From: Gigantopelta aegis
Lineage: Eukaryota > Mollusca > Gastropoda > Neomphalida > Peltospiridae
Assembly: GCF_016097555.1 (NCBI RefSeq)
Contig: NC_054702.1
Span: forward strand, 86,570,525 to 86,634,524
Reading direction: 5' to 3'
Length of the DNA stretch: 64,000 bases
The notes beneath the pieces were generated by a model. That model was not told where the DNA came from, did no database searches, and saw nothing but the letters and a program-made list of their open reading frames with translations. Below are positions 5,031-57,400 of this stretch, in pieces. Position 1 is the stretch's first letter; every line of letters starts with the position of its first letter. The position numbers and the translations under genes are program-made.

Positions 5031-7332
5031 AGTGGCTACAAATTTTAGTCTTTGGCTAATAAAATGTTCTTTAAATTAGCCACTTTTGAATAACTTTCAA
5101 GGAAATATGCTACATATGTGAAAATTGGCTAAAAGACCATTTGTTCCAGTTTGAGGCCTGCATTAGTAGGTGACAGCTGGTAATCTGCCATGGCTGTTGC
5201 TACCCACACCTCCAACTAATTGTCTTACGTACATACAAGTATTCACTTCACTGTGCTCAGTAGATGCAGAGTGTTCTACTTTTCCTCACCAACCTATTTT
5301 GAGTGATAACGAACACACTGCATGTGGTATTTGGCTAACAGAAATTTGTTAAAGTGACTATTTTACAATTGGAAGTAAAAATGTTAATGCCTACTAGTGT
5401 GCATGTACACATGCACATTTAAACTTTTTGTTTTATAAGCCAAAATCAACAATTGTGCTAATTAGCATGCAGGTTAATCACATTGTGTGTTTGACTAATA
5501 ATACTATAGGCTATTGAAATCAGTGATTTGTTGATTATCAAAAGCATAAATTCATCACATTGATTTTATATACTCTGATGACTTAACATGTTTCAGAATA
5601 CACTAGCTTATTTAATTTACAGTCTTTGATGTCAAATTCAACTACTATACTAAGTTATAATTCTTAAGTAGTTTAACTGCATGTATTTGGCTAGCAGTAT
5701 TTTGATAATAACAATCACTGGTTGACTATATAAAACACCAAAAGACCAAAACCCAAAATAATGACAATCAAGGTTTTATTCCTATTTTATATTTAGCAGC
5801 ATGACATCTATTTACATTGCACTTTGGTATTTCTTTACTTGACATACTTTTACAAACTGTTTAGAATGATTTTGCCCATTGTATGAGGAGATGAGGGACT
5901 AAACCACCACGTGGTAATACCACAGTCTACCTCAGCTAGTGTTTCTCAAATCCAGGACATACATCACATATATCACATGTACTCAGTCCTGCTTCACACT
6001 AAACACTAACCATGTTGCTATATCATCAACATTATCGTTTTTAGGTTTTTAAAATATATTACCATGTCATTTCTTAAATCAGTTTTTAGCATTTTGTAAT
6101 TTATTATTACAAAGTTTACTTCACTCTGTGACACCACTGGAGTGTCAAGACATTTTAAGCAAGGAAATCTGTTGTTTTTTAATTTGTATCAAATCATCTG
6201 GTCCCACAGTATTTATGAAACTACTAATTGGCAAATGTTTTCATTGTCAAAGTTGTCCCACCAGTATCTTTGATACTCTGTTCAAATGAGAGAAATCCTG
6301 AACATAAATAAGTGTTAGTGATAAAATAGAAAATAAATTGTTTTGTGTCTACTTATATCTGCATACAAGTAAAATATAGTCCAGGTGAGTTTTTATATCC
6401 AAGAAGCTTGCCATGTGGCAGCTTACACTGTAGAAATGGCATTTCTGATGTAATCCAGATCCGATGTCTGGGTGACTAGCATTCACAAGTTGTACATGAA
6501 TAACACAAAATAATTTAGAGATTTCTAAGTCATTATCAGTGAGGAATAACTGATTGTGCTGATATGGTTTGAAAAGTGTTAGTTTAATTTTACTTCCACT
6601 GAAAATGATATTTTATTTAACATACTAGTGCAATTGTGAAACAGTAGAATCAAAAGTACAAAAAAGCATCTTTTTCTTTCATCCAAAATCATGTTTCTTT
6701 TGAAATAGAATGAAAGGGTCACATGACTGAAATAAGTACAATTGTTAAATCAGTGCATACAAAGTTATAAAGATGAATGTGATTAAACTGCATTGCAGTT
6801 GATTATTTTTTAATATATTTGTTATATTAGTTGACACAGTTAGGTTATCATATCATGATACATCTAGATAACTCCCTTTTATTCTTTATTTATTGTACAG
6901 TGTTGCAACATGACCAATATGGTGCTAGTTTTAGGTGCACTGACATAGTGTTATCATTTACCATGCATGATGTGTATTTCTCAGTGTTCTAGGACCATTT
7001 GTACCATTCTGTCTGGTACCATGACCAATATTTAGACGTTTGTAAAAAGACATTGAACACTTTTGTTCACCAATAATTGTTCTGTACAGTTGAGTGTGTG
7101 AAATGTATGTAAAATAACCTTGTTTATATATTTGTATATTTATTGCCCTTGTGTACAGTCTGTTGTGTTTATGGTTTGTTTGTATTTTTTCTCAATAGTG
7201 AACATATGGTGCATATGAATTCTTGTTGCTTTGCAAACACAAATATTTGTAGATTTTGTACTAAATTAACCCTGAAGATGTAATGGATATTTAAATCTAT
7301 ACTTTCAAAAGCAAAGTTAGAGTCATTTTTAT
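5031..7332. other. AT-rich gene-free stretch
   Basis: No convincing gene, RNA or known repeat seen. It may be extended 3' UTR or intergenic DNA. Confidence 0.4.
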
Positions 7333-8363: not shown

Positions 8364-8816
8364 TAAAGTTTGTTTTGTTTAAAGATACCACTGGAGCACA
8401 TTAATTTATTAATCATTAGCTACTGGATGTCAGACATTTCTTTTATGAAGTCTTTAAGAGGAAACCTGCTACAATTTTCCATTTGCAGCAAGGTATCTTT
8501 TATATGCTCGTTCCCACATATAATATGGGATAGCACATACACGACCTTTGATATACCAGTTGTGGGGCATTGGTTGTCATGGGAAAAAGTAAAATCATTT
8601 TCATTTCACTTCAACTTATTTCTGTGCTTATATCCAATAAATGTTCAAGCACGCTGTCCTGGACACACACCTCAGCTATCTGGGCTGTCTGTCTAGGACT
8701 GTGGGATAGTGGTTAGTGGTTAGTCCAATCAACGAATGGGTCCACTACTGGTTGAACACCTTTGACCCAAGACCTTAGACAAGTGCTTTGCTGACTGAGC
8801 TAGATTCTGCCACTGA
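8364..8816 (-). mobile_element. SINE family A copy split by a SINE C insertion
   Basis: The family A tail and core run 8364-8592. A family C segment (8593-8712, with GCTGTCCTGGACACACACC) interrupts it. A family-A-type head then resumes at 8713-8816, ending near GCTGACTGAGCTAGATTCTG. The nesting means C inserted after A. Confidence 0.65.
8593..8712 (-). mobile_element. SINE family C fragment nested in SINE A
   Basis: Body of family C without a recognisable tRNA-like head; closest to the left half of the copy at 7333-7551. Confidence 0.65.
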
Positions 8817-12577: not shown

Positions 12578-15500
12578 ACCTCCACTGCAGAATTATCTCC
12601 CCTTGCCGGATGTATAACCTACACCCGCGCATGGGTAGACCGTATATCCTCATTTTTTGATTCTGCAGTCCTCCATTGCAGTCGTGTTCGAGTTCTGTAG
12701 TAAAAATTTTGTCAAATTGTCAATTTTTTTATTAATTTGTAATTTTGTTTTAATCTGTCATATGAGGTCTTTTGGGTAATTTACACAGGGGGTTAATGTC
12801 TGACACGGCTTCCTCGGGCTCCAACCGGTTGGTTGTGTGTGCCGAGGGGGGTTGTCTTAAACGACTGCCCCATTTTGATGAGCATTTGTTATGTCGTTCT
12901 TGTTGTTTTGAACGCCAGTGTCATATTTGTGTAAATTGGTCCCCCTCCACGTGGGGGAAGGCTAAGAAGCTGTCAAAAGACGCCGAGCGGAAGAGGATGA
13001 TTAGACGTGAACGGGACGGGCGGAGCACAGTGGCAACCTCCGGGGTCGTGCTCCATACCGATTTGCCGGCGGTCGGCAAGTCGGTGTCCAGTTCAAAGAG
13101 CCCGCGGACAAGTAGTAGGCGCAAGGGCGCCTCCTCGTCTGTTCGCCATCCTCATGGTGATACCAGTAAACCCGAAGCGCCGCTTGGCGCGGAGGGGGCG
13201 CTGTTGCTCCCTGTTTCGGCTGAAGCAGGGAAGGTTTCTTCCAGGTCGGGCTCCGTTCGACCTGGGGATTTGCTTTTGCCTCCGTCGGTGGAGGCGGCGC
13301 CGGTTACGGTTGTAACGGGGGCGTCAGTCGGAGGGAGTGCAGTCGTGGATGGAACGACTGTCTTTCAGTTCCGACTCCCATCTTGCTGATGGGGGCAGGG
13401 TTATCGGTCCTTCTGTGGAGGGGTCGATTAGCTCTAGAATGAAGTCCGCTTTGCGGCGCCGTTTGGCTCACCAGATTTCTGGTGCAGGGTTGGTCGTGGC
13501 GTCCGAGGGCGCCGTTTCGGCCAACGCGTCTTTCGGCGCTACTTCGGTGATCTGCCACTTGGCGACATCGCGAAGTCTTACAACGTTGTCTCGGTCACGG
13601 AGCCGGGTGGCGTTGTTTCGGGTGCGAAGTCAGTGGGCGTCCCTTCTGTTGTTGGGGCGCCTGTACAGCGTCATCAACTTTTAGATCGTTCGCATGTGGC
13701 TACGTCAGCTGGGTTGGCTAATCCACACGTGGTACGTTGGGTTCAGAATTCGGCGCAGGATTCGTACGTGTACGAATTTCCTGACGGTCCGGTTCAACCG
13801 ACACCACCAGTCCCTTTGTCTGTTTCGGCAGGGATCAGGGAAACTGCAGCTTTCTTGGGTGCGCCTGTGTCTACACCGATGGTCAATCCGGACCTGTCAG
13901 ATCGGGGTAGAGGTTCCAGGCGTTATCCCTCGACTGCGTGGGCGGAACCTTTCGTTCAGGGTCCGATGGTTTCGGGTCGCCCTCAGGGGCGGACTCGGGG
14001 GGACTATGTTTCTCTTTTTGAGAATTTCATGGCCTGGCTAGGGGAATCGCCTCCACCAGTCCCTCCACCGCCGGGGTTTCCAGCGAGACCGGGGTTGGAC
14101 CAGTTTGCAGATTCGGCCGGTCCGCATCGTCCTGCCCATGCAGGAAGACGATTTTCCCTCCGAATCAGTGTGTGGTTCGGGGGAAGGTTCGGTGCTTGAC
14201 GAGATTCCCAATTTGGCCGATGGTACGCCAGACGGCGATTATGATTACCAGGCGGTTCTTGGTTTTGTACGGGAACAGGTCCGACTGGTGTGCGCGGATG
14301 CAATTCCGTCGGAGGAGGCTGTTCAGTCTTACAAGGGTGTTTCGTTTGGAAACCGGCCTTTAGCGACGGACGCTCCGCGGCAGGATTTCGGCTTGCCGTT
14401 AGCGCACGAGGCGCATGAATCTCTTGCGGAGATTGATGCTTTGATTGCGGGTAGCGATCGTATTTTGGAGGCGGTGGTGAAAGAGTTTCCGGCAGCGTTA
14501 GCTACCGGGAAACTGTTGTCTGCGGCGAAGGTTTTGTCCACGGCGAAGGTTTTGTCCACGTCTTCTTATAAGACATTGGGAGCTTCCTTCCTTTCACATC
14601 CAGCGGTCGTTTCCGCTAGGGTGAAGGCAGACTGCTACCCATCTCCTAATGTCAGTGTGCCACACACGGATTTCAATAACCATTTAGGTACGTTCCTATT
14701 TGGGTTAGATAAAGCAGTCACGGGTCTTCCGCCGATGGCTAAGGGTTGTTTGTTGGCGGCTTCTAAAGCCTCTCATCACGTCGCTCAGCTTGCTGGGCGT
14801 GTTTTTGCCAACAGTCTACTTCTGCGTCGGGATCACTACCTGGCGGGACTGAGAGCGACGGGTGTGGTTAAAACCTACTTTCGTAGTCGCCCAGTAAGGG
14901 AAAACTTACTTTTTGGGACCAATTTTGAAGCGGCAAAATTCGTCCCTGCTGCTCCGTCCCGAACTGCTCGTAAGCACCAGGCGGCGTCTACTTTTAAGCC
15001 TCCACCTGTTAAGAAATCGACTTTTCTTGACAGTTATCAGATCCCTGTGGTGTCTGATTCGGGCGTGCAGTCTGGTAATGCCTGTGGTTCATCGAAACAG
15101 GGACGTTTTCGGGGGAAGCCGGCACGTTTTCGTGGTTGCGCTCGGGGCAAGGCGCTCAAGGGTGGGAAGCGGCCGGGATGAGGGTGCGTGGACAATCGAC
15201 ATCTGCTTACGGAGGTTCCGTTAGCAGATCTTCCTGTGTGTGTGTGGGGGGGGGGGGGGGGGGGGGCAGATTGCGCCATTTTGTTCAAAGTTGGTGCAAA
15301 CTGCCAGATCTGGACCCATGGGTTTTGTCGGTTGTCCGCAACGGATACAGAATTCCGTTTTCTTCACCCCCTCCACTGATGTCCTCCCCCCGGTTACCTG
15401 CAGTACCGCCTGTCGACAAACGAGTACTGGTGGAGAAGATGGTTGTCGAGTTTCTCGACAAGAAAGCCATCCAGGAGGTGGATTTGGGCACTCCGGGATT

Positions 15501-16999
15501 TTATTCCCATCTGTTCTTCGCCCAGAAGAAGAATGGCGAGTGGCGACCAATTCTAAACCTGAAGCCGCTGAATTATTTCGTCGTTATTCCATCTATGAAG
15601 ATGGAGACGGTTCAGTCTGCTCGCGCTTTGCTTCAGGTGGGGGAATGGGCGGCGTCCATCGATTTGAAGGACGCTTACCTGCATGTTCAAATCCATCGGG
15701 ATTTTTGAAAGTACTTGCGATTCCTCTACGACGGCATAGCTTACGAGTTTCAAGTTCTGCCGTTCGGATTGGCCACAAGCCCTCACGTCTTTACTCGGGT
15801 AGTAAAGGCAGTGGTGGGGCGTGTACATCTGTTGGGTATACTGATGCACAATTACCTGGACGATTGGTTAATTCCGGCGGCGTCACAAACGGCATGTCTC
15901 GTGGGCGTGGAGTTTGTGATTGACATGATTCTCCGATTGGGGTTTATTCCCAATTGGGTCAAGTCGGAATTAGTGCCAACGCAGGTTTTCACTTATCTCG
16001 GGGTGGTTTTCAACCTTGTGGAGGCGTCCGTTCTTCCGACGGATTCGCGAGTTCACAATTTCAGGACGTTGGCGCAGCGTCTTCTGGTGGAGCAAAGTGC
16101 GTCGGTGCGCACGCTCCATGTGTTGATAGGCCATCTCGAATCGCTGGCGGCGCTGAATGTGCGGTTCAGACGGTTCAAGAGACCGCTTCAATGGCATTTG
16201 TCCCGAGTGTGGGATGGTCTCAGCTGGGATTTGGTGATACCATTGGGGCCTTGGTTCATTCTTCCGATCCAAGAGTGTCTAGTGGACAAGTGTATGTCCC
16301 AGGCCGTTCCTTTACACCCACTTTCTCCAGAGTTGGTCCTGTTTACCGATGCTTCCCTCGAGGGGTTCGGTGCACACCTTTCGGATCAACATCTGTCAGG
16401 GGTGTTTGAGATGGAAGCAGTGCGTCGCGCTTGTCTCCATTTCAGGACTGTTATTCGACATCGTCGAATTTTGTTGAGGTCGGACAACACGTCGGTTGTT
16501 GCGTACCTCAATCGGTGGGGAGGCACCAAATCCCTGTCATTGAGTCATGCGGTTTTGGAGATTCTGGAATGGTGCGACGATTGGGGAGTGGTGTTATCGG
16601 CCAAACACATTCCTTCGTCCGTGAACGTCTTGGCGGACGCTTTGAGTCGTCGTTCCCCGGTTCAGACGGAGTGGATGTTGCACCGGACGGTGGCTTATCG
16701 AGTTCTTCAGTTGTGGGGGAGTCCTCAACTCGATATGTTTGCCACTCGCCTGAACAGTCAGTTGCCAGTGTTTGTATCGCCGATACTAGACCCACTGGCA
16801 CTGGAGTACGATGCGTTGAGCATGGACTGGACGGGACTGGATGGGACTGGATGGGACTGGGGTGGATGGTTGACTATCTGGAGCAGTCGAGTGTCTTTTA
16901 CCATTTATTGGTGTGCGGGTATCCTCACCTTGTTAACTTGGTTTACTTTTAATTGGGGTTGTTGTTCTTCAGTTTCTTAATTCTATACCTCGTGGATGG

Positions 17000-17075
17000 T
17001 TGCTATAACTCAGGGACGAACACTACTGTCGTATAGCATTGTTTTTTACCTCCTCCCTGTCTAGTACTAGGTAAG
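17000..17075 (+). repeat. Right inverted terminal repeat of the DIRS element
   Basis: GTCGTATAGCATTGTT at 17028-17043 and CTAGTACTAGGTAAG at 17061-17075 mirror the left end. Confidence 0.85.
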
Positions 17076-17224
17076 TATGAATAATAATGAAAATAGTAAG
17101 AAAGAAACACAAACAAGCAAAGAAAGCTGACGGTGGGTGGAGTGAAAAAAAGGGATAGAACATTAATATAATGTGTATTAAATGTTTCAAAATAAACATT
17201 TTCAATTACTGACATAACAAAATG

Positions 17225-17325
17225 AGATGTTCATCTCAAGATACCATTCCGTATAGCAAACTTCCTTCTTCCGTACGAAATGCAATATACTGTACGGAAT
17301 GGTTCCTTCGCTTGTGAAGATGAAA
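17225..17325. mobile_element. Diverged foldback element, related to 62069-62159
   Basis: The right arm GGAATGGTTCCTTCGCTTGT ends in GAAGATG and matches the right arm at 62.1 kb. The left arm is decayed but still has CATCTCAAGATACCATTCCG. The same sequence is present in the duplicate near 19743-19843. Confidence 0.6.
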
Positions 17326-17651
17326 TATACCAGACTCATCTGCCAGTTATGCATGTTTTTGTTACGACATAAAAGTGTTTTTGTTTTTGTTTTTATTTCA
17401 ATCGTAGAAAATCACACGGAATCAGTATTTTCTTAGTGAACTGTAAAATAATGTGTTTTCGTATTGCCTCAAAAGACCTTCGCAATTGACAAAGACTGAT
17501 GCGATACTTGCTTCATATTACGACAGAAGCACAACTATAGGCGTACGAGCTCCCATTTTTGTTGGGGGGTGGGGGTGCAGGGAGGGAGCAGGCCCAATTT
17601 TACCAGAATTAAACGAAAATGCTCAAATCAGGATAACATTTATTTATATTA

Positions 17652-18072
17652 ACGGGGCGGGATGTAGCTCAGTGATACAGCGCTTGCCTGGTGCGCGATC
17701 GATCTAAGATCGAATCCCATTGAGCTATTTCTGCTAATCGAAAAGAGGTAACCGGACATAACCCCACTGGATAAAAACCTAATCGGACAAAATCCCACTG
17801 GACAGAACCCCACTCATTCGACAGTCCATTTGGACAAACCTCACTTCACTCATATTAAACAATAATCTTCTTTCTTTTTTTATTCATTTAACACAACTAT
17901 AACAATACAACCGTCTCCAGTTCCATCGCACACTGAGAAAGTGCATATAAAAGATCCCTTGCTGCATTAGGAAAAATGTAGCGGGTTTCCTCTGACCAAA
18001 TGTTTGACAGCCATTAGCCGGTGATTAATTAATCAATATGCTCCAGTGGTGTTGTTAAACAAAACAAACAAA
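17652..18072 (+). mobile_element. SINE family A with complete tRNA-like head and an internal insertion
   Basis: The head GGGATGTAGCTCAGTGATAC has an A-box, followed by a B-box-like GATCGAATCCC near 17711. About 180 bp of other sequence (roughly 17749-17930, with short repeats of the type GGACAAAATCCCACTGGACA) separates the head from the usual core and tail (17932-18072). Repeated at about 20185-20607 in the duplicate block. Confidence 0.7.
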
Positions 18073-18527
18073 CTTATTCATATTAGCATTGCTCCTAAGG
18101 TTGCAAACGAATCACTAAGCATTTTTACGTGGATTAAACTAATATTATGGGTAAAATGGTGGAAATGCATTGTGAAAAGGTGTCATGCGAGCTCATACGT
18201 CCTTTTTGCCCAAGTTTAAACATTTGCTCCCACACTGGGGGCAGATGCCAATTGTTCTTCCCTTCCTGTCTCGTACGCTTATGAGCACTAAACAGACATG
18301 GTGGCTTGGAAGAGAAAACCTAGTACTAATGTCAATTTGTTTCTTTATTTTTCAGGACCGTACATAACCTAGAAAAAAATGGTGTGCAATTATTATTTTA
18401 AAAAAGGAACATTGATACATAGAATGTAATTCTTCAGGCTTGACTTTCAAACTAAAAAGGGTATTTTTAATGTTTTGGAGGTGGGGGAGATGTCTGTATT
18501 TATTTAAGTCTTAATCACGCTGCTATG

Positions 18528-18641
18528 TCCTGTCCTGGACGGAGGAGCCGGCCAAGGCCGGCACCTGTGCACAGGACAGGCGTGCGCTACAACAGCTTGC
18601 TCTGAACGTACACGTTAAACCCTCTGATCCTACCTGACCTG
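18528..18641 (+). mobile_element. Hairpin-headed short element E, copy 2
   Basis: 114 bp between perfect 11-bp direct repeats ACGCTGCTATG (18517-18527 and 18642-18652). The head has nested inverted repeats: outer CCTGTCCTG with CAGGACAGG, inner GCCGGCC with GGCCGGC. Same body as copy 1. Confidence 0.85.
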
Positions 18642-19042
18642 ACGCTGCTATGGATACACACATCAGCTGTAAGTACGGGTTAATGGTCACTTGTATTGTA
18701 ATGACAGATCAGGTGGCAAAACCACAATACAAGAAAGGTGATTTTACTTTATTTATATTTACACAGACCATATACTCTACTCTAATAACCAAATACTGGG
18801 GTAGTTACAGAACACCTGAATTGGTTTTGTTACAGGCTTTCAATTTAATTTATAGGTCATGGTTATGGAAAAAGAAAATGTCCACGCATCTCGTTGTAAT
18901 AATTCCTGGTTCAGCTTTAAATAACTAGTAGTGTGTGGAATAATTCTTTGTCAAACTTTAGTCAAATATGTGTATTCAGCGGGTCAAAAAAAGTCAGATA
19001 AATACAATTTCTGATTGCAAACGTAGAGCAATCTTCATTTCC

Positions 19043-19741: not shown

Positions 19742-20184
19742 GTGAGATGTTCATCTCAAGATACCATTCAGTATAGCAAACTTCCTTCTTCCGTACGAAA
19801 TGCAATATACTGTACGGAATGGTTCCTTCGCTTGTGAAGATGAAATATACCAGACTCATCTGCCAGTTATGCATGTTGTTTGTTACGACATAAAAGTGTT
19901 TTTGTTTTTTTGTTTTTATTTCAATCGTAGAAAATCACACGGAATCAGTATTTTCTAGGTGAACTGTAAAATAATGTGTTTTTCGTATTGCCTCAAAAGA
20001 CACCTTCGCAATTGACAAAGACTGATGCGATAATTGCTTCATATTACGACCAGAAGCCAACTATAGGCGTACGAGCTCCCATTTTTGTTGGGGGGTGGGG
20101 GGTGGAGGGAGGGGGCAGGCCCAATTTACCAGAATTAAACGAAAATGCTCAAATCAGGATAACATTTATTTATATTGAACGGGG

Positions 20185-20607
20185 CGGGATGTAGCTCAGT
20201 GATACAGCGCTTGCCTGGTGCGCGATCGATCTAAGATCGAATCCCATTGAGCTATTTCTGCTAATCGAAAAGAGGGTAACCGGACATAACCCCACTGGAT
20301 AAAAAAACCTAATCGGACAAAATCCCACTGGACAGACCCCCACTCATTCGACAGTCCATTTGGACAAACCTCACTTCACTCATATTAAACAATAATCTTC
20401 TTTTTTTTTTTATTCATTTAACACAACTATAACAATACAACCGTCTCCAGTTCCATCGCACACTGAGAAAGTGCATATAAAAGATCCCTTGCATGCATTA
20501 GGAAAAATGTAGCGGGTTTCCTTGACCAAATGTTTGACAGCCATTAGCCGGTGATTAATTAATCAATGTGCTCCAGTGGTGTTGTTAAACAAAACAAAAC
20601 AAACTTA
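20185..20607 (+). mobile_element. SINE family A, duplicate of 17652-18072
   Basis: Same head, same internal insertion and same tail as the first copy, so it was copied with the block and is not an independent insertion. Confidence 0.7.
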
Positions 20608-21063
20608 TCATATTAGCATTGTGCTCTAAGGTTGCAAACGAATCACTAAGCATTTTTACGTGGATTAAACTAATATTATGGGTAAAATGGTGGAAATGCA
20701 TTGTGAAAAGGTTTGTCATGCGAGCTCATACGTCCTTTTTGCCCAAGTTTAAACATTTGCTCCCACACTGGGGGCAGATGCCAATTGTTCTTCCCTTCCT
20801 GTCTCGTACGCTTATGAGCACTAAACAGACATGGTGGCTTGGGAAGAGAAAACCTAGTACTAATGTCAATTTGTTTCTTTATTTTTCAGGACCGTACATA
20901 ACCTAGAAAAAAAAATGGTGTGCAATTATTATTTTAAAAAAGGAACATTGATACATAGCATGTTAAATTCTTCAGGCTGACTTTCAAACTAAAAGGGTAT
21001 TTTTAATGTTTTGGAGGTGGGGGAGATGTCTGTATTTATTTAAGTCTTAATCACGCTGCTATG

Positions 21064-21177
21064 TCCTGTCCTGGACGGAGGAGCCGGCCAAGGCCGGCAC
21101 CTGTGCACAGGACAAGCGTGCGCTACCACAGCTTGCTCTGAACGTACACGTTAAACCCTCTGATCCTACCTGACCTG
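21064..21177 (+). mobile_element. Hairpin-headed short element E, duplicate of 18528-18641
   Basis: Carries the same 11-bp flanking repeats (21053-21063 and 21178-21188). Confidence 0.85.
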
Positions 21178-21574
21178 ACGCTGCTATGGATACACACATC
21201 AGCTGTAAGTACGGGTTAATGGTCACTTGTATTGTAATGACAGATCAGGTGGCAAAACCACAATACAAGAAAGGTGATTTTACTTTATTTATATTTACAT
21301 AGACCATATACTCTACTCTAATAACCAAATACTGGGGTAGTTACAGAACACCTGAATTGGTTTTGTTACAGGCTTTCAATTTAATTTATAGGTCATGGTT
21401 ATGGAAAAAGAAAATGTCCACGCATCTCGTTGTAATAATTCCTGGTTCAGCTTTAAATAACTAGTAGTGTGGAATAATTCTTTGTCAAACTTTAGTCAAA
21501 TATGTGTATTCAGCGGGTCAAAAAGTCAGATAAATACAATTTCTGATTGCAAACGTAGAGCAATCTTCATTTCC

Positions 21575-28461: not shown

Positions 28462-28738
28462 ACGGGGACGGGATTTAGCTGTCAGTTGAGTGCTCGCTTG
28501 AGGTGCTTGCGTCGCAGGATCGAACCACCTCAGTAGATCCATTCAACTGATTGGTTTTTTTTTCGTTCCATCAAGTGCACCACAACTGGTCAAAGGCCGT
28601 GGTATGTTCTTTCCTGTTTGTGGGAAAGTGCATATAAAAGATCCCTTGCTGCATCAGGAAAATCGTAGCGGGTTTACCAATAACCGATGATTAATTAATC
28701 AATGTGCTCCAGTGGTGTCGTTAAACAAAATAAACTTT
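28462..28738 (+). mobile_element. SINE family A copy
   Basis: Head GGGACGGGATTTAGCTGTCAG, B-box-like AGGATCGAACC, core with TATAAAAGATCCCTTGCTGC, tail GTCGTTAAACAAAATAAAC. Nearly complete. Confidence 0.8.
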
Positions 28739-29777: not shown

Positions 29778-30170
29778 TGCTGGGGAAAGCTAAGATGGTT
29801 GTGATGATGGTGGTGATATAAATGACGGTAGTGACGATGTGTGAAGTTGTGTAATGGTTTTATACTGACTGGTGGTGACAGTGCTAGTGGTGGTGATGGT
29901 GCTAATGGTAACCATGGTGTAAGAAGTTGTGTAGTGGTTGCATAGTGACAGGTAGTTGTGACAGTGTTAGCGGTGGTGGTGTTGGTGGTAACCTTGATGT
30001 AAGAAACTGTGACATTGGTAGTGATGAGTATGCTAGTGGTGGTGGTGGAGTTGATGGTAACCGTGGTGCAAGACATGTAATAATCGCATAGTAACGTTAG
30101 TGAAGGTGTACGAAGTTGTGGAGTGGTCGAAAAGTGTTGATGTAGTGGTGACATTGGTGTTGGTAATTGT
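29778..30170. repeat. Degenerate GTGGTGATGGT-type minisatellite
   Basis: Irregular repeats of GTGGTGATG and GAAGTTGTGTAGTGG units. It lies immediately left of the large array and is unlike it in sequence. Confidence 0.7.
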
Positions 30171-31431
30171 ACGTGTAATTGTAAGTGCACTGTGTTACGT
30201 AGTATTTCTCCGAAGTTTGGCTCCCCACAGCATAAACAACTATTTAAGAATCGTTGAGCTCTAGATGGAAAGAGAATAAAACCATCGACTTCATATATTA
30301 CACGGCAATGCGCTTTACCCACTAAGCTTGATATTCCACTTATCTTACAATGACAAATGACGTCACGCAATTGTTAGACGCTTGGAAGGGAACTTTGGCT
30401 CCACACTGCATAAAACGTGGCCTTCTAATCCAAAACGATATCCCGTTCTACCCACTAAGCTCAATATTGCAATTAAGTTACAATGACAAATGACGTCCCG
30501 CAATTTTTAGAGCTTTGTAGTGAGGTTTGGCACAGCATAAACAAGTAGTTAAGAATCACTGAACTCTAGATGCGACGAGAATAAAACCATCGATTTCATA
30601 TATTACACGGCATTGCGCTCTACCTACTAAGCTCCATATTCAACTTAAGGAGCAATGACTAATTTCTTCACGCAATTGTTATACTCTTGGAACCTAAGTT
30701 TAGCTCCACACAACATAAACAACAGTCTAAGAATCGTTGGGCAGTGTTTGGAATGAGTTATAAAACCATCGACATGATATATTACAAAACAAAGTACTAC
30801 CCACTAAGCTCAATATTGCCATTAACTCACAATTAAAAAAAATGACATCACGCAATTGTTAGATGCTTAGAAGCGACGTTTAGACTGGTTGGGACGAGAA
30901 TCAAACCATCAACTTAATATCCTACACAACATTGTGCACAAGCCAATTATGTTACAATGACAAATGACGTCACGCATTTGTTAGACCCTTGGAAGCAGAG
31001 TTTAGCTCCACACAGCATAAATAATGATTTGAGAATCGTTGAGATCTAGATGGGAGGAGAATAAAACCATAACTCCATATCTTACACGGCATTGCGCTCG
31101 AGACAGTAAATTCGATATTCCAGTTATGTTACAATGACAAATGACGTCACGCAATAGTTAGATGCTTGAATTTCAATTAATGTATTATGTCAAATTATAT
31201 CGTGGAGAGGCATTTAGATAGGCCTACAGCCTGTTTGCCGATCCATTTCAATTATTTCAAATGAATAAATATTGTTTTAAAAAAAAGAAGAAAAAACGAA
31301 AAACGAAAGCGAAGTTTGGCTTCCCCACAGCATAAACAACGATCTAATAACTATGGCGCAGTGGTTGAGACGAGAATAAAACCATCAACTTCTTATCCTA
31401 CACGACATCGTGCACGACCCAATAAGCTTAA

Positions 31432-32199
31432 TGCCGCACACCCTAGTTCCATCCAGCGAAAATAAATTATAATTTAGTTTATCTACAAACCTGTAACACA
31501 CTTAGATCACGTTTTTATCAAATGGAGTGAAAAAGCAGGTTTTATATCGATAAATACCATGGGAATCCCCATGTCCCAATTGCTTGAAATAATTTTGAAA
31601 GTTAGTATTCTGATGTCACCGGTAGAAGCACAACAATGCCTACGTCACGACAAATTTCACAGACTTGGGTTTTCCGTTGAACCTCTCCTGGACATGTTCC
31701 AACTGTTCTGTCCTGGTTGTATCCCCTCTCCAGATTCGTCTTCTTAGCAAAGGTTAGCGGTTTTAAGGGTTTGTAACGTTTTGTATTGAGACACTTACTT
31801 GTTTGCCACTTTATTGTGGCTGAAAATGTTCACCGCCGCTGGAAACGTCTCCAACTTCCTCCACCTTCGGATGTTTCTTCGCGAATCGTGCACAAGTATC
31901 CGTACACCAAAATGATCACGGTTGCCCGATATACCAACGTCTGTATTAGACAATATACTGGATCAACGCTTCCTTAACGTTTTTTCTCCAACACGTTTTG
32001 TGAAAAAATGCAAAAAATGCACAGCACACTCGACAAACATCTGGTTACCAAAAAGCACTTTTGTGAATGGAAATGTAGTATGGTCTAAATAATTGGTAAG
32101 TAAAGTGCAATTTTATTTGTGAAAAACCACCAACATCATAGCGAAACACAACACGCCGTAATGGTTAACAACTAAACGTAACTTGCCATTAATGTCCCT
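31432..32199 (+). mobile_element. TTAA-flanked DNA transposon, family H, copy 1
   Basis: 768 bp between TTAA at 31428-31431 and 32200-32203. The left end TGCCGCACACCCTAGTTCC matches the right end (reversed) of 62876-63449; its own right end is diverged. The empty site at 35247-35250 shows a single TTAA. A stretch at 31559-31747 keeps an open frame with LLDMFQLFCPGCIPSP, also open in copy 2; no transposase is recognised. piggyBac- or Kolobok-type by target site. Confidence 0.82.
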
Positions 32200-33477
32200 T
32201 TAAAATTGATATCACGCAATTGTCAGACTCTTGGAAGAGCAGTTTCACTTCCCACAGCATAAATAACCATCTAAGAATAATTGGGCAGTAGTAGGGACGA
32301 GAATAAAACCATCGACTTCATATTCCAACACAACGCCCGTACTAACAAGCTCAATATGTAATTTTGTTACAATGACAAATGACGTCACGCAATTGTTAGA
32401 CGCTTGGAAACGAAGTTTTTCTCCCCACAGCATAAACAACAATATAAGAATCGTTTTCATTGTCCACTAGTATGGGACGAGAATAAAACCATCGACTTCA
32501 TATATTACAGCTCTAATCTGCTCTAATATTGACTCTTCGATATTCCAATTTTGGGGCGTGACAAATGACGTTCTGCAATTGTTAGACGCTTGTCGAGGTA
32601 TCTTTGGCTCCCAAACAGTATAAACAACAATATAAGAATGTTTTCATTGTTGTAGGGACAATAATAAAACCATCAACTTTCATGTCGTACAGAAATCATG
32701 CACTAGCCACTAAGCTTAATATTAACGTCTCTTTACTGACAAAAAAAATTTCGCCTTCAGCATGTCACGCAATTGTTAGACACTTGGAAGCGACGTTTTC
32801 CCACACCCCACCACTCATCACAAATCGTTGGGCACTGCAGGTGATGAGAATAAAACCATCGACTCCACATCCTATACGACATCGCGTTCTAACCAATAAG
32901 CTCAATATTGCCATTATATTACAATGATCTAAGAATCAGATATTACACTACAACGCCCTCTACCCACTTAGCTCAATATTGTAATTATGTTAGAATGACA
33001 AAAGACGTCATACAATTGTGAGACGTTTAGAACCAAAGTCTGGCTCCCAATATCATAAACAACTATTTAAGAATCGTTGAATGGGATGGGAGGAGAATAA
33101 AACCATCGACTTCATAAATTACACTGCAATGCCTCAATATTAAAATTATGTTACAATAACAAAATGACGTCATTCAATTATTGTTAGACCCTTGGAGATA
33201 AAGTTTGACTCTCCAAACCATTAACAACGATCTAAGAAACGTTCGGCACTGGTTGGGACGGAAATAAAAACATAACCTTCTTATCGTACACGACATCGCA
33301 CTCTGCCCATTGAGGTCAATATTGCTATTATGTTACAACAGCGAATGACGTCACGCAATTGTTAGACACTTGAAAGTGAGGTTTGCCCATTCCCCCACCA
33401 CACGGCAGAAATCGTTTGGCACTGGCTGAGATGAAACTGATACCAGCGACTCCATATCCTATACAACATCGCACTAA

Positions 33478-33864
33478 CCGGCCTCGGTGGCGTCGTGGTA
33501 GGCCATCGGTCTACAGGCTGGTAGGCACTGGGTTCGGATCCCAGTCGAGGCATGGGATTTTTAATCCAGATACTGACTCCAAACCCTGAGTGAGTGCTCC
33601 GCAAGGCTCAATGGGTAGGTGTGAACCACTTGCACCGACCAGTGATCCATAACTGGTTCAACAAAGGCCATGGTTTGTGCTATCCTGCATGTGGGAAGCG
33701 CAAATAAAAGATCCCTTGCTGCTAATCGGAAGAGTAGCCTATATAGTGGCGACAGCGGGTTTCCTCTCAAAATCTGTGTGGTCCTTAACCATATGTCTGA
33801 CGCCATATAACCGTAAATAAAATGTGTTAAGTGCGTCGTTAAATAAAACATTTCTTTATTTTCT
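33478..33864 (+). mobile_element. SINE family D inserted in the array
   Basis: Head GGCCTCGGTGGCGTCGTGG, tail AAATAAAACATTTCTTTATT. The paralogous monomer at about 36490-36530 lacks it. Confidence 0.85.
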
Positions 33865-34507
33865 TTCTAGCTAATAAGCTGAATATTGCCTTTGTGTTAC
33901 TATGGAAATCAAATGACGTCATACACCCGGTGTGTTTTGGGCCTTATCCTACACGACATCGCGCTCTACCCATTGAGGTCATATTACAATAGAAAATGAC
34001 GTCACGCAATTGTTACGCGCTGGGACGCGACGTTTGCCCACACCCCCACCACACAGCACAAATCGTTGGGAACTGACTGGGATGAGAATAAAACCATCGA
34101 CTCCATATCCTACACGACATCGCTTTCCAGGCAATAAGCTCAATATTGCCATTGTCGTACAATGATAAATGACGTCATACAATTATTAGACTCTAGAGCT
34201 CTAGATGGGAAGAGAATAAAACAATCGACTTCATATATTACAGGGCAATGCGCTCTACCCACTTAGCTCGATATTCCACATATGTTACAATGACAAATGA
34301 CTTCACATAATTGTTAGAAGCTTGGGGGCGAAATTTGGCTAATCCCAGTATAGACAACGATTTAACCATCTTTGGATGAGTGGTTGGTACGAGAATCAAA
34401 GCACCAACTTCATATCCTACACGACATCGTGTTCTAGCCAATAAGCTCAATATTGCCAATATGTTACAAAGACAATGATGTCATACAATTAGTATACTTC
34501 TGGAACC

Positions 34508-36570
34508 GAAGTTTGGCTTCCCACAGCATAAACAACTATTTAAGAATCGTTGAGCTCTAGATGGAAAGAGAATAAAACCATCGACTTCATATATTACACG
34601 GCAATGCGCTTTACCCACTAAGCTTAATATTCCACTTATCTTACAATGACAAATGACGTCACGCAATTGTTAGACGCTTGGAAGGGAACTTTGGCTCCCC
34701 ACTGCATAAAACGTGGCCTTCTAATCCAAAACGATATCCCGTTCTACCCACTAAGCTCAACATTGCAATTAAGTTACAATGACAAATGACGTCACGCATT
34801 TGTTAGACCCTTGGAAGCAGAGTTTAGCTCCACACAGCATAAATAATGATTTGAGAATCGTTGAGATCTAGATGGGAGGAGAATAAAACCATAACTCCAT
34901 ATCTTACACGGCATTGTGCTCGAGACAGTAAATTCGATATTCCAGTTATGTTACAATGACAAATGACGTCACGCAATAGTTAGATGCTTGAATTTCAATT
35001 AATATATTATGTCAAATTATATCGTGGAGAGGCATTTACATAGGCCTACAGCCTGTTTGCCGATCCATTTCAATTATTTCAAATGAATAAATATAGTTTA
35101 AAAAAAAGAAAAAAAAGAAAAACGAAAGCGAAGTTTGGCTTCCCCACAGCATAAACAACGATCTAATAACTATGGGGAAGTGGTTGGGACGAGAATAAAA
35201 CCATCAACTTCATATCTTACACGACATCGTGCACGATCCAATAAGCTTAATATTGACATCACGCAATTGTCAGGGTCTTGGAAGAGCAGTTTCACTCCCC
35301 ACGGCATAAACAGCCATTTAAGAATCATTGGGCAGTAGTAGGGACGAGAATAAAACCACCGACTTCAAATATTACACTACAACGCCCTCTACCAACAAAG
35401 CTCAATATTGTAATTTTGTTAGAATGACAAATGACGTCACACAATTGTTGGATGCTTGGAAGCGAATTTTCTCTCCCCACAGCATAAACAATAATATAAG
35501 AATGTTTTCATTGTCCACTGTATGGGACAATAATAAAACAATCAACTCCATAGCTTACAGGACAACTCGCTCTACCCACTAATCTGAATATTGACTCTTT
35601 ACAATGACACATGTCACGCAATTGTTAGACACTTGAAAGCGACGTTTTTCCACACCCCACCACTCATCACAAATCGTTGGGCACTGGAGGTGATGAGAAT
35701 AAAACCATCAACTCCACATCCTATACGACATCGCGTTCTAACCAATAAGCTCAATATTGCCATTATATTACAATGATCTAAGAATCAGATATTACACTAC
35801 AACGCCCTCTACCCACTTAGCTCAATATTGTAATTATGTTAGAATGACAAAAGACGTCATACAATTGTTAGACTTTTAGAAGCAAAGTCTAGCTCCCAAT
35901 ATCATAAACAACTATTTAAGAATCGTTGAATGGGATGGGAGGAGAATAAAACCATCGACTTCATATATTACACGGCAATGCCTCTACCCAATACATTCGA
36001 TAGTCCAGTTATGTTACAATGACAAATGACGTCACGCAATTGTTAGACGCTTGGAAGCAAAGTTTGACTCCGCACATCATAAACAACGATTTAAGAATCA
36101 TTGAACACTGGATGGGATAAGAATACAACTATCGACTTCTTACCCTATACGGCAATGCGTTCTAATCATTAGCTCAATATTAAAATTATGTTACAATAAC
36201 AAAATGACGTCATTCAATTATTGTTAGACCCTTCGAGATAAAGTTTGGCTCCCCAAAGCATTAACAAGGATCTAAGAAACGTTCGGCACTGGTTGGGACG
36301 GAAATAAAAACATCGCCTTCTTATCCTACACGACATCGCACTCTGCCCATTGAGGTCAATATTGCGATTATATTACAACAGCGAATGTTAGACACTTGGA
36401 AGCGAGGTTTGCCCATTCCCTCACCACACAGCACAAATCGTTTGGCACTGGCTGGGATGAAACTGAAATTAGCGACTCCATATCGTATATGACATCGCGC
36501 TCTAGCCAATAAGCTGAATATTGCCTTTTATTTGTGTTACAATGGAAATCAAATGACGTTATACACTTGT
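34508..36570. repeat. Higher-order segment of the array, copy 2
   Basis: Collinear with copy 1, lacking about 470 bp of monomers corresponding to 30495-30965 and both transposon insertions. Empty target sites lie at 35247-35250 and near 36500. Confidence 0.8.
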
Positions 36571-38884
36571 TATATGTTGTAATAACAAAATAAGAAATGG
36601 CATCACTCAATTGTTGGACGTTTGGAAGGAAGGTTTGGCTCCCCACACCATAAACAACGATTTAAGAATCGTTTAACACTGGATGGGACAAGAATAAAAC
36701 CATCGACTCGATATCTTATATGACATCGCACTCTAACCAAGACGCTCAATATTGTCATTATGGTACAATGGCAAATGATATAATACAATTGTTTGACCGT
36801 TGCAATCGACGTTTGGCTTCTCACAACATAAACAACGATTTAAGATTCGTTGGATACTGAATGCGACGAGCATAAAACTATCGACTCCTTACCCTATGCC
36901 GCAATACGCTGTATGTATTAGCTTAATATTGGCATTATGTCGTAATAACAAAATTACATCACGTAATTGTTGTTAGACCCTTGGAAGTAAAGTTTAGCTC
37001 CCAAAGCATTAACAATGATCTAATAATTATTAGGCAGTGGTAGGGACGAGAAAAAATGCATTGATTTCACATATTACACAACAAGCGCTCTACCCAATAA
37101 ATTCGATATTCCAGTTATGTTACATTGACAAATGACGTCACGCAGTTGTTAGACGCTTGGAAGCGAAGTTCGCCTCCTCACAGCATAAACATTTGATTGG
37201 AAGAAGAATAAAACCATCGACTCCCTATCTTACAGGACATCGCGTAATCTGAATATGGTCATTCATTTACAATTTATGATGACAAATGACGTCACGCAAT
37301 TATTACAAGCTTGGACGCGAAGTTTGCCCTACCCCCAGTACACAGCACAAATGGTTGAGCACTGACTTGGATGAGAATAAAACCATCGACTCCATATCCT
37401 ATACGAAATCGCGCTCTAGGCAATAAGCTCAATATTGCCATTGTCTTACAATGACAAATGACGTCATACAATAATTAGATCCTTAGAACCGAAGTTTCGC
37501 TCCACACAGAATAAACAACGATTTAAGAATCGTTGATTTCTAGAGAATAAAACAATCGAATCCACTTATGGTACATTGATTCCATATCTTAAATGATATC
37601 GCGCTCTACCCACTAAGCTCAGTATTGCCATTATGTTACAATGGCAAATGATGTCATGTTAGACAGATCGAAGTTTGGCTCCTCAAAACAATGGATGGGA
37701 CGAGAATAAAACTATCGACTTCTTGCCCTATACGGCAATGCGCTCTACCAATTAGCTCAATACTGAAATTATGTTACACTAACAAAATGACGTCACGCAA
37801 TTTTCGTTAGACCCCAGGAAGTAAAGATTGGCTCCCCAAACCATTAACAACGATCTAAGAATTATTAGGCAGTGGTAGGGATGAAAATAAAAACTTCACC
37901 ATCTTATCCTACACGACATCACTCTCTACACATAAAGGTCAATATTGCAATTATGATAGAATCGCGAGTGACGTCACGCATTTGTTAGACGCTTGTAGGT
38001 GAGGTTTGGCTCCCCATAGCATAAACAACTATTCAAGAATCCTTGGGCAGTGGTTGGGACGAGAATAAAACCATCAACTTCATATCCTACACGGCATCGT
38101 ACACGAGCCAATAAGCTCAATATTAGCATTATGTTACAGTGACAAATGACGTCACGCATTGTTGGACGTTTGGAAGCGAAGTTTGGCTCCCCACAGCATA
38201 AACAACAATATAAAAATCATTGGGATCTGGTTTGGAGAAGAATAAAACCATTGACCCCCTATCTTACAGGACATCGCGCTGTACACACTAATCTGAATAT
38301 GGCCATTCATTTACAATTTATAATGACGAATGACGTCACGCAATTGTTACATTTTTGGACCAAAGTTTGGCTCCCCATAGCATAAACAACTATTCAAGAA
38401 TCCTTGAGCAGTGGTTGGGACGAGAATAAAACCATCAATTTCATATCCTACACGGCATCGTACACGAGCAAATAAGCTCAATATTAGCATTATGTTACAG
38501 TGACAAATGACGTCATGCAATTGTTAGACCCTTGGAAGGTGGCTCTACACAGCATAAACAATTATTTAATAATCGTTGGGTCTAAATGGAACGGGAATAA
38601 AACCATCAACTTCATATATTACACAGCAATTTGTTCTACCCAATAAATTCGATATTCCAGTCTTGTTACAATGACAAATGATGTCACGCAATTGTTGGAC
38701 GCTTGGAAGAGAAATTTGACTCTCCATAGCATAAACAACTATTTAAGAATCCTTGGACAGTGGTTGGGATGACAATAAAACCATCGACTTCATATGCTAA
38801 ACGACATCGTGCTTGAGCCAATAAGCTCGATATTCCACTTATGGTACAATGACAAATGACGTCACGCAATTGTTAGACCATGGA

Positions 38885-39115
38885 AGTAAACCGTTATCCG
38901 CGATCAAGACCGCATTTCTGCACAATATAGAGTCGAATGTGAATTTGTCAAAATAGTGGTTGATTCCATGAATTTCTGTCTAGTGTCTCGTCTATAGGAG
39001 GACAGCCACTTCCGAGGAGATCTTTTACTGGAAAATACTGGTACACCCTTCCTGCACCGCCAAAAAGAGGACTGTCGCGCTCAGACTAGTTTACTAAATC
39101 CAAACTAGCACAGAA
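38885..39115 (-). repeat. Unknown dispersed repeat F, copy 2
   Basis: Pairs with 7905-8150. Sits exactly at the right edge of the tandem array. It carries an extra 10 or so bases near 39040 relative to copy 1. Confidence 0.65.
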
Positions 39116-39560: not shown

Positions 39561-39682
39561 CTAAATGTCTACCATAAAAGGTTTTTTATTGCCATTAGGA
39601 GTCCCCCAGGAGTGAAAAGGCAATACTTTTTATATTAAAACGCACTTTTAATTCAACATCTCTGGGAACAATTTAACAGCTA

Positions 39683-39988
39683 ACGTTTGTTTTGTGTAAC
39701 GACACCACTAGAGTACATTAATTAATTCATCATCGGTTATTGATTATCAAACATTTGGTAATTCTGACATATAATGTTCGAGGAAACCCGATACATTATT
39801 TTCATTATCAGCAAGGAATCTTTTATGCGCACTTTCTCCACAAACAGGATAGCATATACCACGGCTTTTGATATATCATTCGTGGGGCATTAGTTGGGAT
39901 GGGAGAAAAACACAATTAGATAATGGGTACACCGGGTGTTTTCGATCCTTCGACCAAAGCACCCCAGGCGAGTGATCTACCGACTGGA
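39683..39988 (-). mobile_element. SINE family A copy
   Basis: Tail AACGACACCACTAGAG on the left; head to about 39988 with GAGTGATCTACCGACTGG. Confidence 0.78.
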
Positions 39989-54400: not shown

Positions 54401-57400
54401 TGGGAAACACTTTGCCTTGTGATCATGGGAACCCATTGAAAAATGTTTTTAAAAAATAATTATATATTATTTTCACTCAATAGTTACATGATTTTACCGA
54501 CATGGTAAATGATAGTTTCTAAAAAATCTGAGGGTCTGCATTGGTGCAACAGATCAGCCCTGCATGGTGCTAATAAAACACTTATAGTCTAGATTTGAAA
54601 CTCTAATAGAGTCTGAGACACTAATGTCATGACAAGCCCATAAAAATTGTATGTGTGTGACGTCATTAGAGACTGAGTCTGAACTCTAAAAGTTTTATAA
54701 GCATGGGCCATGAATCCTGCCAGTTGACAGTGTGTATTAAAATAGTCATAATATACCTCTTCCTCCTCCTCCTCCTCTTCATCCCCCTCTCGGTACTCCA
54801 CCTCGGCAACATAGTAATTCTGTTCCCGACCAAAGATCTTGCCCCAGAACCTGACGTGCTGCAGTGGGTGGTTGTCCACCAGGTTCTTGAGTGCGAGCCA
54901 CACACGGATCATCTCTTCGCGGTTCATCCCAATGGCTGCTTGCTCGAAGAAGAAACACAGCTCCATGATGTTTGGTAGCGGAGTCTCGACATCCTCGTCT
55001 GGTGGCATTTCATCTTCTTCACCTTCACCTTTCTAAAACAAATAAACGCATACAAATTCATGTTACACAATAGATGACATAGCTGGGGTGCGATCTGAAT
55101 GTGGGGGTTTTAAAAGTACATTCAAATTCAAAAAGTCAAACTTGTAAAGTGAATTGTTCTAAAACTTAGCTACCTGTCCTAAGAATCCACCTTATTATTC
55201 TACAAAAATCATCTAATAAATACAAAGTTACTTTAAACAGCCATTCTGCTATTTAGGTTAATTTACAGGCCTCTGAAACTTAGAGAACAATCCTTTCCTG
55301 CATGAGTCTCTCACATAAGTCTATAGTCTATATATTTAAACCCATTTTTCATTCAAGCACTGAATTAGAAAATCTTTTACAGGGTCATGACAGGTTATGC
55401 AAACAGAAAAAGGGTTATCTGAATTTGTTTTTGCAATACCCATAAACGAGTTACACAAATGTTTATTTCTCAGAGGCTTGCTTTAAATATATAGCACCTT
55501 GGGTGCTGCTTAAAAAAGGTTTGGCAGCATAGGTGAGTTTTGACATTATTTTTACTCCACAATCTACATCAATATAAAATTCTGGAATATTGCTCATTGC
55601 CAATTTCACATACTATAAACAGAATTCAGTTAAAATATCTTTCATTGTTGTGATTTAAACTGGACCCAAAACATTATCAACAATTTTTCTAATTTGGTTA
55701 CAAAAAATTGGTAGACAAATTGAAATTTCATTTGCAAGAAACATATTTATTTGAAATGTTTTATTAAAACAGGGCATAAATTTCACGAGAACTGTTGTTC
55801 TGTTCACGTGTCAGTTACGCAACTTTAAAATCATGAGAACCGCCCATATATCGGTAATGAAAGAGAAAATCAGTTGTTTTTAAATACATTTGAATCACCA
55901 ATATAGCACAGAACCATAGTTCAAGTGTTTTAGGATTAGGTGGGCCTAACTCATTGGTTACAAGACAAGACATTTATTTTTAATATGCACAAAGACAGGA
56001 TAGTACATACCATGGCCTTTGTTATGCCAGTTGTTGATCACTGGCAGGAACAAGAAATGAATGGATACTACTTTAATATAAATACCAGGCCTATATATTC
56101 CAAATGACCTCTAATTAGCGTCAATTGTAATAACGTCTTCACTTTTTCATATGCAAGAATGTAATTGGTACATCTTTACTCAGTGACACATATATCCCGG
56201 GAGGTAGCAAAGAAGGTTGATGTATTCAGATTTGGAAACAAATTATGCCAGATACAAAAATACATTTTCAAAGAAATGTACACATAATGAAAATGGTGGA
56301 AGATCTACAAATGGCAGGCAATTTTCTAATTAGCTTTTGGTCATTTAAAATGAAATACCTTAATTAAATTAAATACAAATATATATTTTTTGAGCTGAAT
56401 CCCTGCACTGACAGTCTTTGTATACTGACAGTTTTTTAAGACAAATAAATGTCCAGTTAGATGCAGAGTGAAAGAACATTTATGGCACAAAACGAAATGC
56501 ATACAGACTGTAACTATGTTTAATGTCTTCATTTACAAATCATATTTAATAAAAGTTTATTTTGTTTAACGGTACCTCTAGAGCACATTGATTTATTAAA
56601 AATCAGCTATTGAATTTCAAACATTTGGTAATTTTAACATGTAGAGAGGAAACATGCTACGTTTTTCCATTAGTAGCAAGGGATCTTTTATATGCACCAG
56701 CCCATAGACAGGATAGCACATAGCAGTTGTGAGGCACAGGCTGGAATGAGAAATAGCCCACCGACAGGGATTGATCATTGAGCGACTGTGCATCAGGAGA
56801 GCACTTTACCACTGGGCTACATCCAGCCCCATAATATTGAATAACTGTCAGTAAATATTTACATTTAGTCCTATATGTTGTTTCAACACTAAATACTTCG
56901 AAAACTAAAAGTATACAGCATCAGCATGTCTAATATATATACATAAAAATAAATATGTATGACTGTAAATTAATTCTTACTGAAAACAATTTCTTTTGCA
57001 CTTGAGCTAAAGCAACTTCTGTGGACTGATCAATTTTGTCGTGCACTGTATCGGTGTCAGATATAAATTTAGCTCGTTTAGAGTCCTTGCTGATATCTTC
57101 AAAAATATCCACAACATTGGCTGGTCGCTCGTCAAGAACTTTTGAAAGAACATGTGAGAGATGGTCATAGCTGAAATAAAACAACAAACAGAAATAAGGA
57201 ATGGATTTCAGACACTGCTTTTTGGGACTTTTTTTTAAAAAATACTGTCAGAACAGTAAAAATTATGTAATATATAAAGGATACTCCCCGAGTGTCTTGT
57301 GATATCATAATTTATCAACACGAGTTAATAAAAGTATGAAATTCGAGGCTTGCCAAGGATTTTTATACTTTTATCAATGTGTGCTGATAAATTATGATAT

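Follow-up and report, generated by a model that had tools for sequence, protein, structure and literature searches.

A 64,000-nucleotide stretch of contig NC_054702.1 of the gastropod Gigantopelta aegis (hereafter the window) contains a tandem array of a unit of about 178 bp, which an initial annotation had described as a satellite-like array of a tRNA-derived unit carrying a palindrome. Our analysis showed that this array is one locus of a satellite family spread over many contigs, and homology indicates that its monomer is derived from a short interspersed nuclear element (SINE). About 100 bp of the monomer would represent the 5' part of a tRNA-headed SINE (head, spacer and first part of the core), and about 78 bp would be other sequence, which carries the palindrome TGACGTCA, of the cAMP response element (CRE) type. 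On balance, we favor the view that the RNA polymerase III (pol III) role of the SINE has been lost in the satellite and that the palindrome has been retained as a double-stranded site, most likely for basic leucine zipper (bZIP) factors of the CREB/ATF type.

The satellite family and its SINE parent

An nhmmer profile grown from one unit matched the array in a single orientation, and the matches covered 7077 bases, equivalent to about 39.8 monomers (coordinates in Table 1); the earlier count of 40-45 tandem monomers was thus a fair one. The short unit is repeated head to tail, the arrangement of a satellite, and blocks within the array are duplicated at 77-88% identity. Exact copies of TGACGTCA occurred 26 times in the whole window, 24 of them inside the array, whereas shuffled windows contained a mean of 0.78 and at most 4. 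Among the 42 array units covering the palindrome columns, 24 carried it exactly, 9 with one mismatch and 9 in another form. The ratio of observed to expected CpG was 1.0 in the array (window 30211-38889) and 0.67 in the remaining window, and an imperfect minisatellite of the GTGGTGATGG type (window 29801-30170) abuts the left edge of the array.

The window belongs to contig C4 of a 1.149-Gb assembly (G000), which was searched for further copies. A 361-base query gave at least 288 matches, with arrays on several contigs among the matches listed; a 21-base core with up to one mismatch gave 448 matches genome-wide, and its reversed control gave none. Twenty stretches and then nine more were fetched from the genome for a comparison of loci. 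By rough extrapolation, the family comprises about 1,600 monomers, or 0.28 Mb, with a mean monomer identity of 0.77 within loci and 0.72 between loci. A search for dispersed copies of the unit had been proposed as a check; all seven of the apparently lone sites that were checked, in a survey that was not exhaustive, belonged to clusters of tandem or broken tandem units, and none of them was a dispersed single monomer of the kind that defines a SINE.

Comparison of the flanks of 12 arrays (a few of them short and one reading N) revealed only dispersed repeats as common content, many of them recognizable SINEs, at varying distances and not in register. The array ends had no shared frame, starting and stopping at differing unit phases. 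Flanks without constant sequence and ends out of phase are the behavior of a satellite, not of the inner repeat of a transposon. A longer terminal unit reaching the SINE end was not noticed at these flanks, where no systematic search for one was made. Among the matches listed on large contigs, positions were interior. The 100 exact core matches listed (of 448 in all) lay on C3-C6, C8-C11 and unplaced contigs; among the matches listed, none lay on C1, C2, C7 or C12-C15, possibly reflecting a restriction to certain chromosomes. A scan of viral contigs with a 19-base core gave no matches. Rfam searches of 11 kb of the window (matches up to E 5) and of six loci (up to E 10) gave no ribozyme, and a retrozyme or other ribozyme-bearing tandem repeat was rejected for want of a hammerhead or other ribozyme match.

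The origin of the monomer was examined by comparison with dispersed SINEs. When the head of one such copy (window 28465-28600) was used as a search seed, it initially gave 46 matches, one of them in arrays, and the search grew to 588 matches, 503 in arrays and 85 off-array. Because the search had absorbed monomers, the test profiles were built from off-array copies only. A hidden Markov model (HMM) of 79 dispersed segments (longer than 100 bases, from the 85 off-array hits) matched the monomer consensus at 26.4 bits (E 2.8e-10), and the best of 5000 dinucleotide shuffles reached 5.5 bits. A second HMM, from 45 copies found with the array monomers masked, gave 21.2 bits against 5.6 for the best shuffle, although the seed of this profile had first been noticed through its likeness to the monomer. 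An earlier SINE profile had given 12.4 bits, and 3.5 in 2000 shuffles. These off-array profiles were the decisive test of origin and provide better evidence than the initial annotation had offered; its proposal that a SINE-like unit was amplified in tandem was borne out.

The likeness was also detectable in single monomers. From 555 profile matches, we obtained 421 near-full-length monomers at 15 loci, of which 155 reached at least 8 bits with the SINE HMM, compared with none of 2105 shuffles; 279 gave some hit, always on the transcript strand, and 142 gave none. The alignment takes in about 100 of the 178 bp: it begins at the A-box, crosses the spacer TTCTCGTCCCAACCAGTGC and reaches into the core domain, and it is gapped in the anticodon arm, in the spacer and close to the B-box. 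For three SINE profiles (185-318 positions), homology ended in the core domain, and with the same three profiles neither the 3' LINE-like region (LINE, long interspersed nuclear element) nor the tail that a complete SINE would possess was found in the monomer. In array loci, the distance from A-box to core was 57 in 143 of 312 landmark pairs, at least two of which are dispersed SINEs. Among the dispersed SINEs it could be measured in 38, and 15 of these had a distance of 80. Longer units at two loci, L066 and L059, retain the anticodon-arm segment, and these long-form units look like intermediates. At L066 (C1485:1501-5600), the units are also grouped in threes within a higher-order repeat of about 1815 bp, the identity of which is 99.6%; the palindrome is intact in each unit, and the anticodon-arm segment is kept in two of the three.

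Dispersed SINEs of the parent type are present in the same genome (85 off-array hits in the 333 kb, or 60 records, examined). Since the parent type of SINE, intermediate-looking units and the finished satellite occur in one genome, the path from a dispersed element to a satellite can be read here. A SINE 5' fragment lying beside a short stretch with TGACGTCA may have been duplicated, and the pair would have become the satellite unit. A few units would have arisen by duplication, and growth and spread would then have proceeded through unequal exchange and segmental duplication rather than retroposition. The block duplications in the window and the higher-order repeat elsewhere would be traces of such growth at the DNA level, and other SINEs and repeats were inserted later.

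tRNA likeness and pol III boxes of the monomer

The initial annotation read the minus strand of the array as tRNA-like, with A-box- and B-box-like blocks at tRNA spacing. No monomer appeared among the Rfam tRNA matches of the window array and six other loci even at lax cut-offs (E 5 and E 10), and the sole tRNA match in the window array was the head of an inserted SINE. Since Rfam gave no other tRNA match on the arrays, a tRNA model was made from 16 tRNA genes of the same genome. With this model, the three best array monomers scored 15.5, 16.8 and 18.9 bits and the others lower; the fit was good in the D-arm and poor elsewhere. The head of the inserted SINE scored 29.7 bits, and the heads of dispersed SINEs ranged from 8.5 to 29.7 bits, overlapping the range of the monomers. 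Matches up to E 10 lay opposite to the array strand in 20 of 23 cases in the window and 67 of 80 in pieces of six other loci; in these six pieces, all 38 matches up to E 1 did so, except one outside the array. As a point against the history proposed above, the long-form units were not more tRNA-like (none up to E 1 at L066; 11.3 bits at L059). Because the score ranges overlap and the long-form units do no better, the tRNA model alone is not decisive.

The two boxes fared differently. An A-box (TRGYNNARNNG) with at most one mismatch was present in 294 of 419 monomers and in 124 of 419 shuffled sequences (two of the 421 rows were too short to be counted), and the mean best mismatch was 1.23 in columns 46-80, compared with 1.47-2.79 in nine other slices, some of them overlapping. 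These values support the A-box-like block modestly. The A-box had appeared attractive as a second conserved peak; this candidate was dropped, as its conservation showed no significant excess (column permutation reached the A-box value in 66% of trials, P 0.66). In contrast, the minus-strand block GGTTTTATTC, which had been taken for the B-box, was no nearer to GGTTCRANNCC than shuffled sequence. A B-box with at most two mismatches occurred in 6 of 421 monomers, compared with 27 of 421 shuffled sequences and 26 of 421 on the other strand, and on the tRNA-like strand a TTTT, a pol III stop, stood at the claimed block in 327 of 421 monomers. The alignments indicate that GGTTTTATTC is SINE spacer; by our reading of them, the true homologue of the SINE B-box (AGGATCGAACC) would be AGGATATGAAG, which is degraded and has lost the core of the motif. 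The monomer thus has an A-box and no B-box at tRNA spacing, in contrast to a tRNA-derived SINE, and the array units are probably no longer transcribed as the parent element was.

Conservation of the palindrome and its possible causes

The palindrome is located in the 78 bp of the monomer outside the SINE homology. The suggestion that it was simply part of the ancestral unit therefore holds for the satellite unit and not for the SINE. Pooled over the 15 loci, its distance to the A-box was 34 bases in 261 of 404 cases and 35 in 52 more, which by our own count places it at about -29/-22 relative to the tRNA-like start. The nearly fixed distance, and the exact or one-mismatch copies in 33 of the 42 units of the window array, agree with the earlier description of the motif in most units at a fixed position. 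Nine loci (L059-L067) were excluded from the conservation counts, having been picked by the palindrome 21-mer or, in the case of L064, after the search with the 361-base query; L001-L008 were excluded for overlap with other loci. In the loci centered on tRNA genes (L029-L058), five copies of TGACGTCA were present in 92 kb outside the satellite, more than expected from the window shuffles (0.78 per 64 kb).

Across the 421 monomers, the eight-base windows at the palindrome showed the highest conservation (0.935-0.941, against a mean of 0.83). Once base and CpG class had been corrected for, each of the nine best windows overlapped the palindrome, whose value of 0.122 exceeded both the next separate window, that of the A-box (0.047), and the 95% point of column permutation (0.085); none of 5000 permutations reached it. 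The conserved block reaches to AAATGACGTCA and includes ATGACGT. On a tree of the 413 distinct monomers, none of 20000 composition-matched draws had as few changes as the palindrome. Without composition matching, 0.8% of draws were as low, and the raw parsimony rank of the palindrome was sixth of 161 windows, since change is slow in AT-rich windows too. The palindrome CpG was intact in 82% of pooled monomers, compared with 33-63% for ten other CpG sites, and in all 15 loci its retention was above the average of those sites. In 7 of the 15 loci, the palindrome was among the five best of 163 windows. These results confirm, for the pooled monomers, that the palindrome is conserved above its neighbors, and the outcome that would have refuted the initial annotation did not occur.

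The simplest reading of this survival would be that the pol III promoter decayed and the palindrome persisted as a bound site, protected through selection or through occupancy; judged by sequence, the obvious candidates are bZIP factors of the CREB/ATF type, which are named in PMC7279448. Several observations weigh against a bound site. The palindrome CpG was better kept than every other CpG in only 4 of 15 loci, with 5 ties and 6 losses, and the palindrome ranked 116th, 81st and 62nd in three loci of 7-12 monomers and 14th of 163 windows in the window array. Conservation at CpG positions was 0.708, compared with 0.762 and 0.748 at other C and G; since the CpG class was hardly worse and the CpG ratio of the window array was 1.0, CpG decay is not strong here. 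Moreover, the monomers share ancestry, and column counts are therefore not independent, for which the tree test corrects in part. The locus-by-locus CpG counts led us to place less weight on a bound site and more on an inert satellite, in which the same SINE-derived monomer would need no protein to keep its palindrome, whose conservation would follow from mutation context, hypomethylation, conversion bias or shared ancestry. An inert satellite, which we consider somewhat unlikely, would agree with the strong divergence of the monomers between loci, the generally slow change of AT positions, the three small loci without palindrome excess, the other CpG sites kept equally or better in 11 of 15 loci and the CpG ratio of the array. 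It does not readily account for the composition-corrected peak far above permutation, or for a palindrome CpG above the mean in every locus while the best-kept other site differs from locus to locus.

The remaining explanations appear much weaker than retention of a bound site. In one of them, pol III would transcribe each unit from internal A and B boxes with the aid of an upstream CRE, in the manner of 7SL, an idea close to the external promoter element that the initial annotation had envisaged. The frequency of A-box matches and the scores of the three best monomers with the tRNA model point in this direction, and a CRE at -51/-44 aids transcription of 7SL and 4.5SH RNA (PMC7279448). In the pol III genes tabulated there, however, the CRE lies at about -54 to -43 (7SL at -51/-44), and in adenovirus VAI at -38/-31, whereas the palindrome lies at about -29/-22; the unit has no CRE near -50, its B-box matches are not above those of shuffles, TTTT lies within the body of most units and the A-box has no special conservation. 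In addition, SINE copies and tRNA genes are without such CRE sites according to PMC7279448, and lone dispersed copies were found at none of the seven sites checked. We therefore consider a pol III unit very improbable, and an external promoter role for the palindrome is unsupported. Overall, the tandem array, the palindrome and, modestly, the A-box of the initial annotation stood, as did its SINE origin and palindrome conservation; the B-box and the pol III promoter did not. Retention as a promoter of recombination that drives array growth, similar to the CRE-like M26 heptamer ATGACGT of fission yeast (PMC9775316), is about as improbable: the heptamer is present in the conserved block, and conserved motifs have been proposed as promoters of satellite rearrangement in nematodes (PMC3694981), but CRE sites that are not hotspots are also reported in PMC9775316. 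Moreover, 517 adjacent pairs included 43 phase jumps, and the breakpoints of these were not enriched near the palindrome (14 within 25 bases on the left and 4 on the right, with 12.3 expected on each side, in a test biased by the model edges). Some bivalve repeats are Helitron- or pearl-type elements with internal tandem repeats. That the array is such an internal repeat of a larger transposable element is the least probable explanation; it would fit the many separate loci, several of them similar in length, but not the 12 array flanks (some short) with dispersed repeats only and no constant terminal sequences, or the arrays that begin and end at differing unit phases.

Unusual resistance to decay of the palindrome sets apart an otherwise ordinary satellite. 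If it is kept by protein binding, the satellite would have lost its old pol III promoter and gained a bound site in its stead, which bears on why some satellites persist. As a wider and unlikely extension, offered tentatively, the family may form genome-wide dense clusters of candidate bZIP (CREB/ATF) sites, the satellite descendants of a decayed SINE being kept or spread through binding of a nuclear factor at TGACGTCA. The lost pol III promoter would then have given way to a satellite motif in the style of the CENP-B box, to an element that phases nucleosomes or to a factor sponge.

Related satellites and other features of the window

SINE-derived satellites (sSats) have been described in scaled reptiles (PMC10702118). 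As in those, the tandem arrays repeat a segment of a tRNA-headed SINE whose dispersed copies occur in the same genome; they stand at many loci, with partial homogenization and a unit of satellite length. Unlike in the reptile sSats, the SINE segment here is joined to about 78 bp from outside the SINE, which carry a conserved CRE-type palindrome, and a longer terminal SINE unit at the array ends was not noticed, no systematic search having been made. PcH-sat of the limpet Patella caerulea (PMC11121367) likewise belongs to a gastropod; its unit measures 179 bp, and 118 bp of this derive from the tRNA-type Nin-SINE. However, it is without A and B boxes, is mainly pericentromeric and reaches about 10% of the genome, whereas the present family is small and uses the SINE 5' part with the A-box. 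Tandem tRNA-like or pol III-like blocks are also known from amphibians (newt PolIII/TAN, Rana/polIII and Hydromantes Hy/polIII), and Hy/polIII also lacks box B; a dispersed SINE parent is not known for these families according to PMC10702118, whereas here the parent type is present in the same genome. In the genes for 7SL, EBER, vault and 4.5SH RNA, a type 2 pol III promoter is preceded by TGACGTCA or a closely similar site (PMC7279448); unlike the array unit, these genes possess both boxes A and B. The few published SINE-satellite examples examined in PMC10702118 were judged inconclusive there. Long tandem arrays derived from SINEs are thus uncommon, as had been stated, but they have already been described (PMC10702118, PMC11121367), and the present array is a further, well-supported SINE-derived satellite whose own features are the A-box end of the SINE and the persistent CRE-type palindrome. 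A search of literature joining TGACGTCA with satellite DNA, with partial coverage, gave no paper on such a satellite by title and the start of the abstract.

The window array contains three kinds of interruption that were absent from the initial annotation: a full SINE, another dispersed repeat and an A-rich insert (Table 1). The SINE is a later insertion, as the array match stops at model position 47 on its left and restarts at position 47 on its right. The A-rich insert occurs at two places and is therefore probably older than an internal duplication. SINE copies joined to TGACGTCATTT at loci L012 and L020 were considered as ancestral chimeras and rejected; they are later insertions, because the array resumes beyond them and target-site-like repeats were recognized by eye. 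At L012, three SINE copies (2392-2698, 4844-5144 and 8398-8684) occupy almost identical positions in the monomer and seem to stem from one insertion event copied with a higher-order unit.

Table 1. Positions of the array, its parts and related repeats in the window
Feature	Position	Strand	Remark
Satellite array, SINE-derived by homology, unit ~178 bp	30192..38909	+ (tRNA-like reading on -)	48 nhmmer matches; TRF rows at period 175-181
Exact TGACGTCA palindromes of the array, 24	first 30358-30365, last 38857..38864	.	Exact-match count
Block pair	30249..31432 and 34061-35251	+	79.9% identity
Block pair	30210-30689 and 34506-34990		87.9% identity
Block pair	32235..33475 and 35126-36342	+	77.3% identity
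Block pair	32200-32525 and 35247-35574		87.0% identity
Best tRNA-like monomer stretch of the array	34551..34632	-	16.8 bits; D-arm/A-box good, rest weak
Second-best tRNA-like monomer stretch	30266..30337	-	15.5 bits
tRNA-headed SINE inserted in a monomer	33477..33867	+	Head 29.7 bits with tRNA model
Insertion of another dispersed repeat	31433..32206	+	Related to 63454-63036 and 63005-62864
A-rich insert, ~128 bp	31171..31297	+	Second copy at ~34993-35115
Dispersed SINE copy, head and core like the monomer	28471..28738	+	Seed of the search that converged on monomers
Dispersed SINE relative	39681..39981	-	Seed of the second profile; off-array monomer-profile match 39816-39911, E 3.2e-08

Outside the array, a GC-rich block with open frames (window 13000-17000), one of which matches a reverse transcriptase domain (Pfam RVT_1, E 1.6e-10), is probably a retroelement relic. 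A direct repeat of about 1.8 kb (window 17223-19042 and 19743-21574) shows 97.4% identity, and a nearby stretch reads N. On the minus strand at window 54589-55008, about 16 kb from the array, a frame matches the radial spokehead-like protein family (Pfam PF04712, E 7.7e-31).

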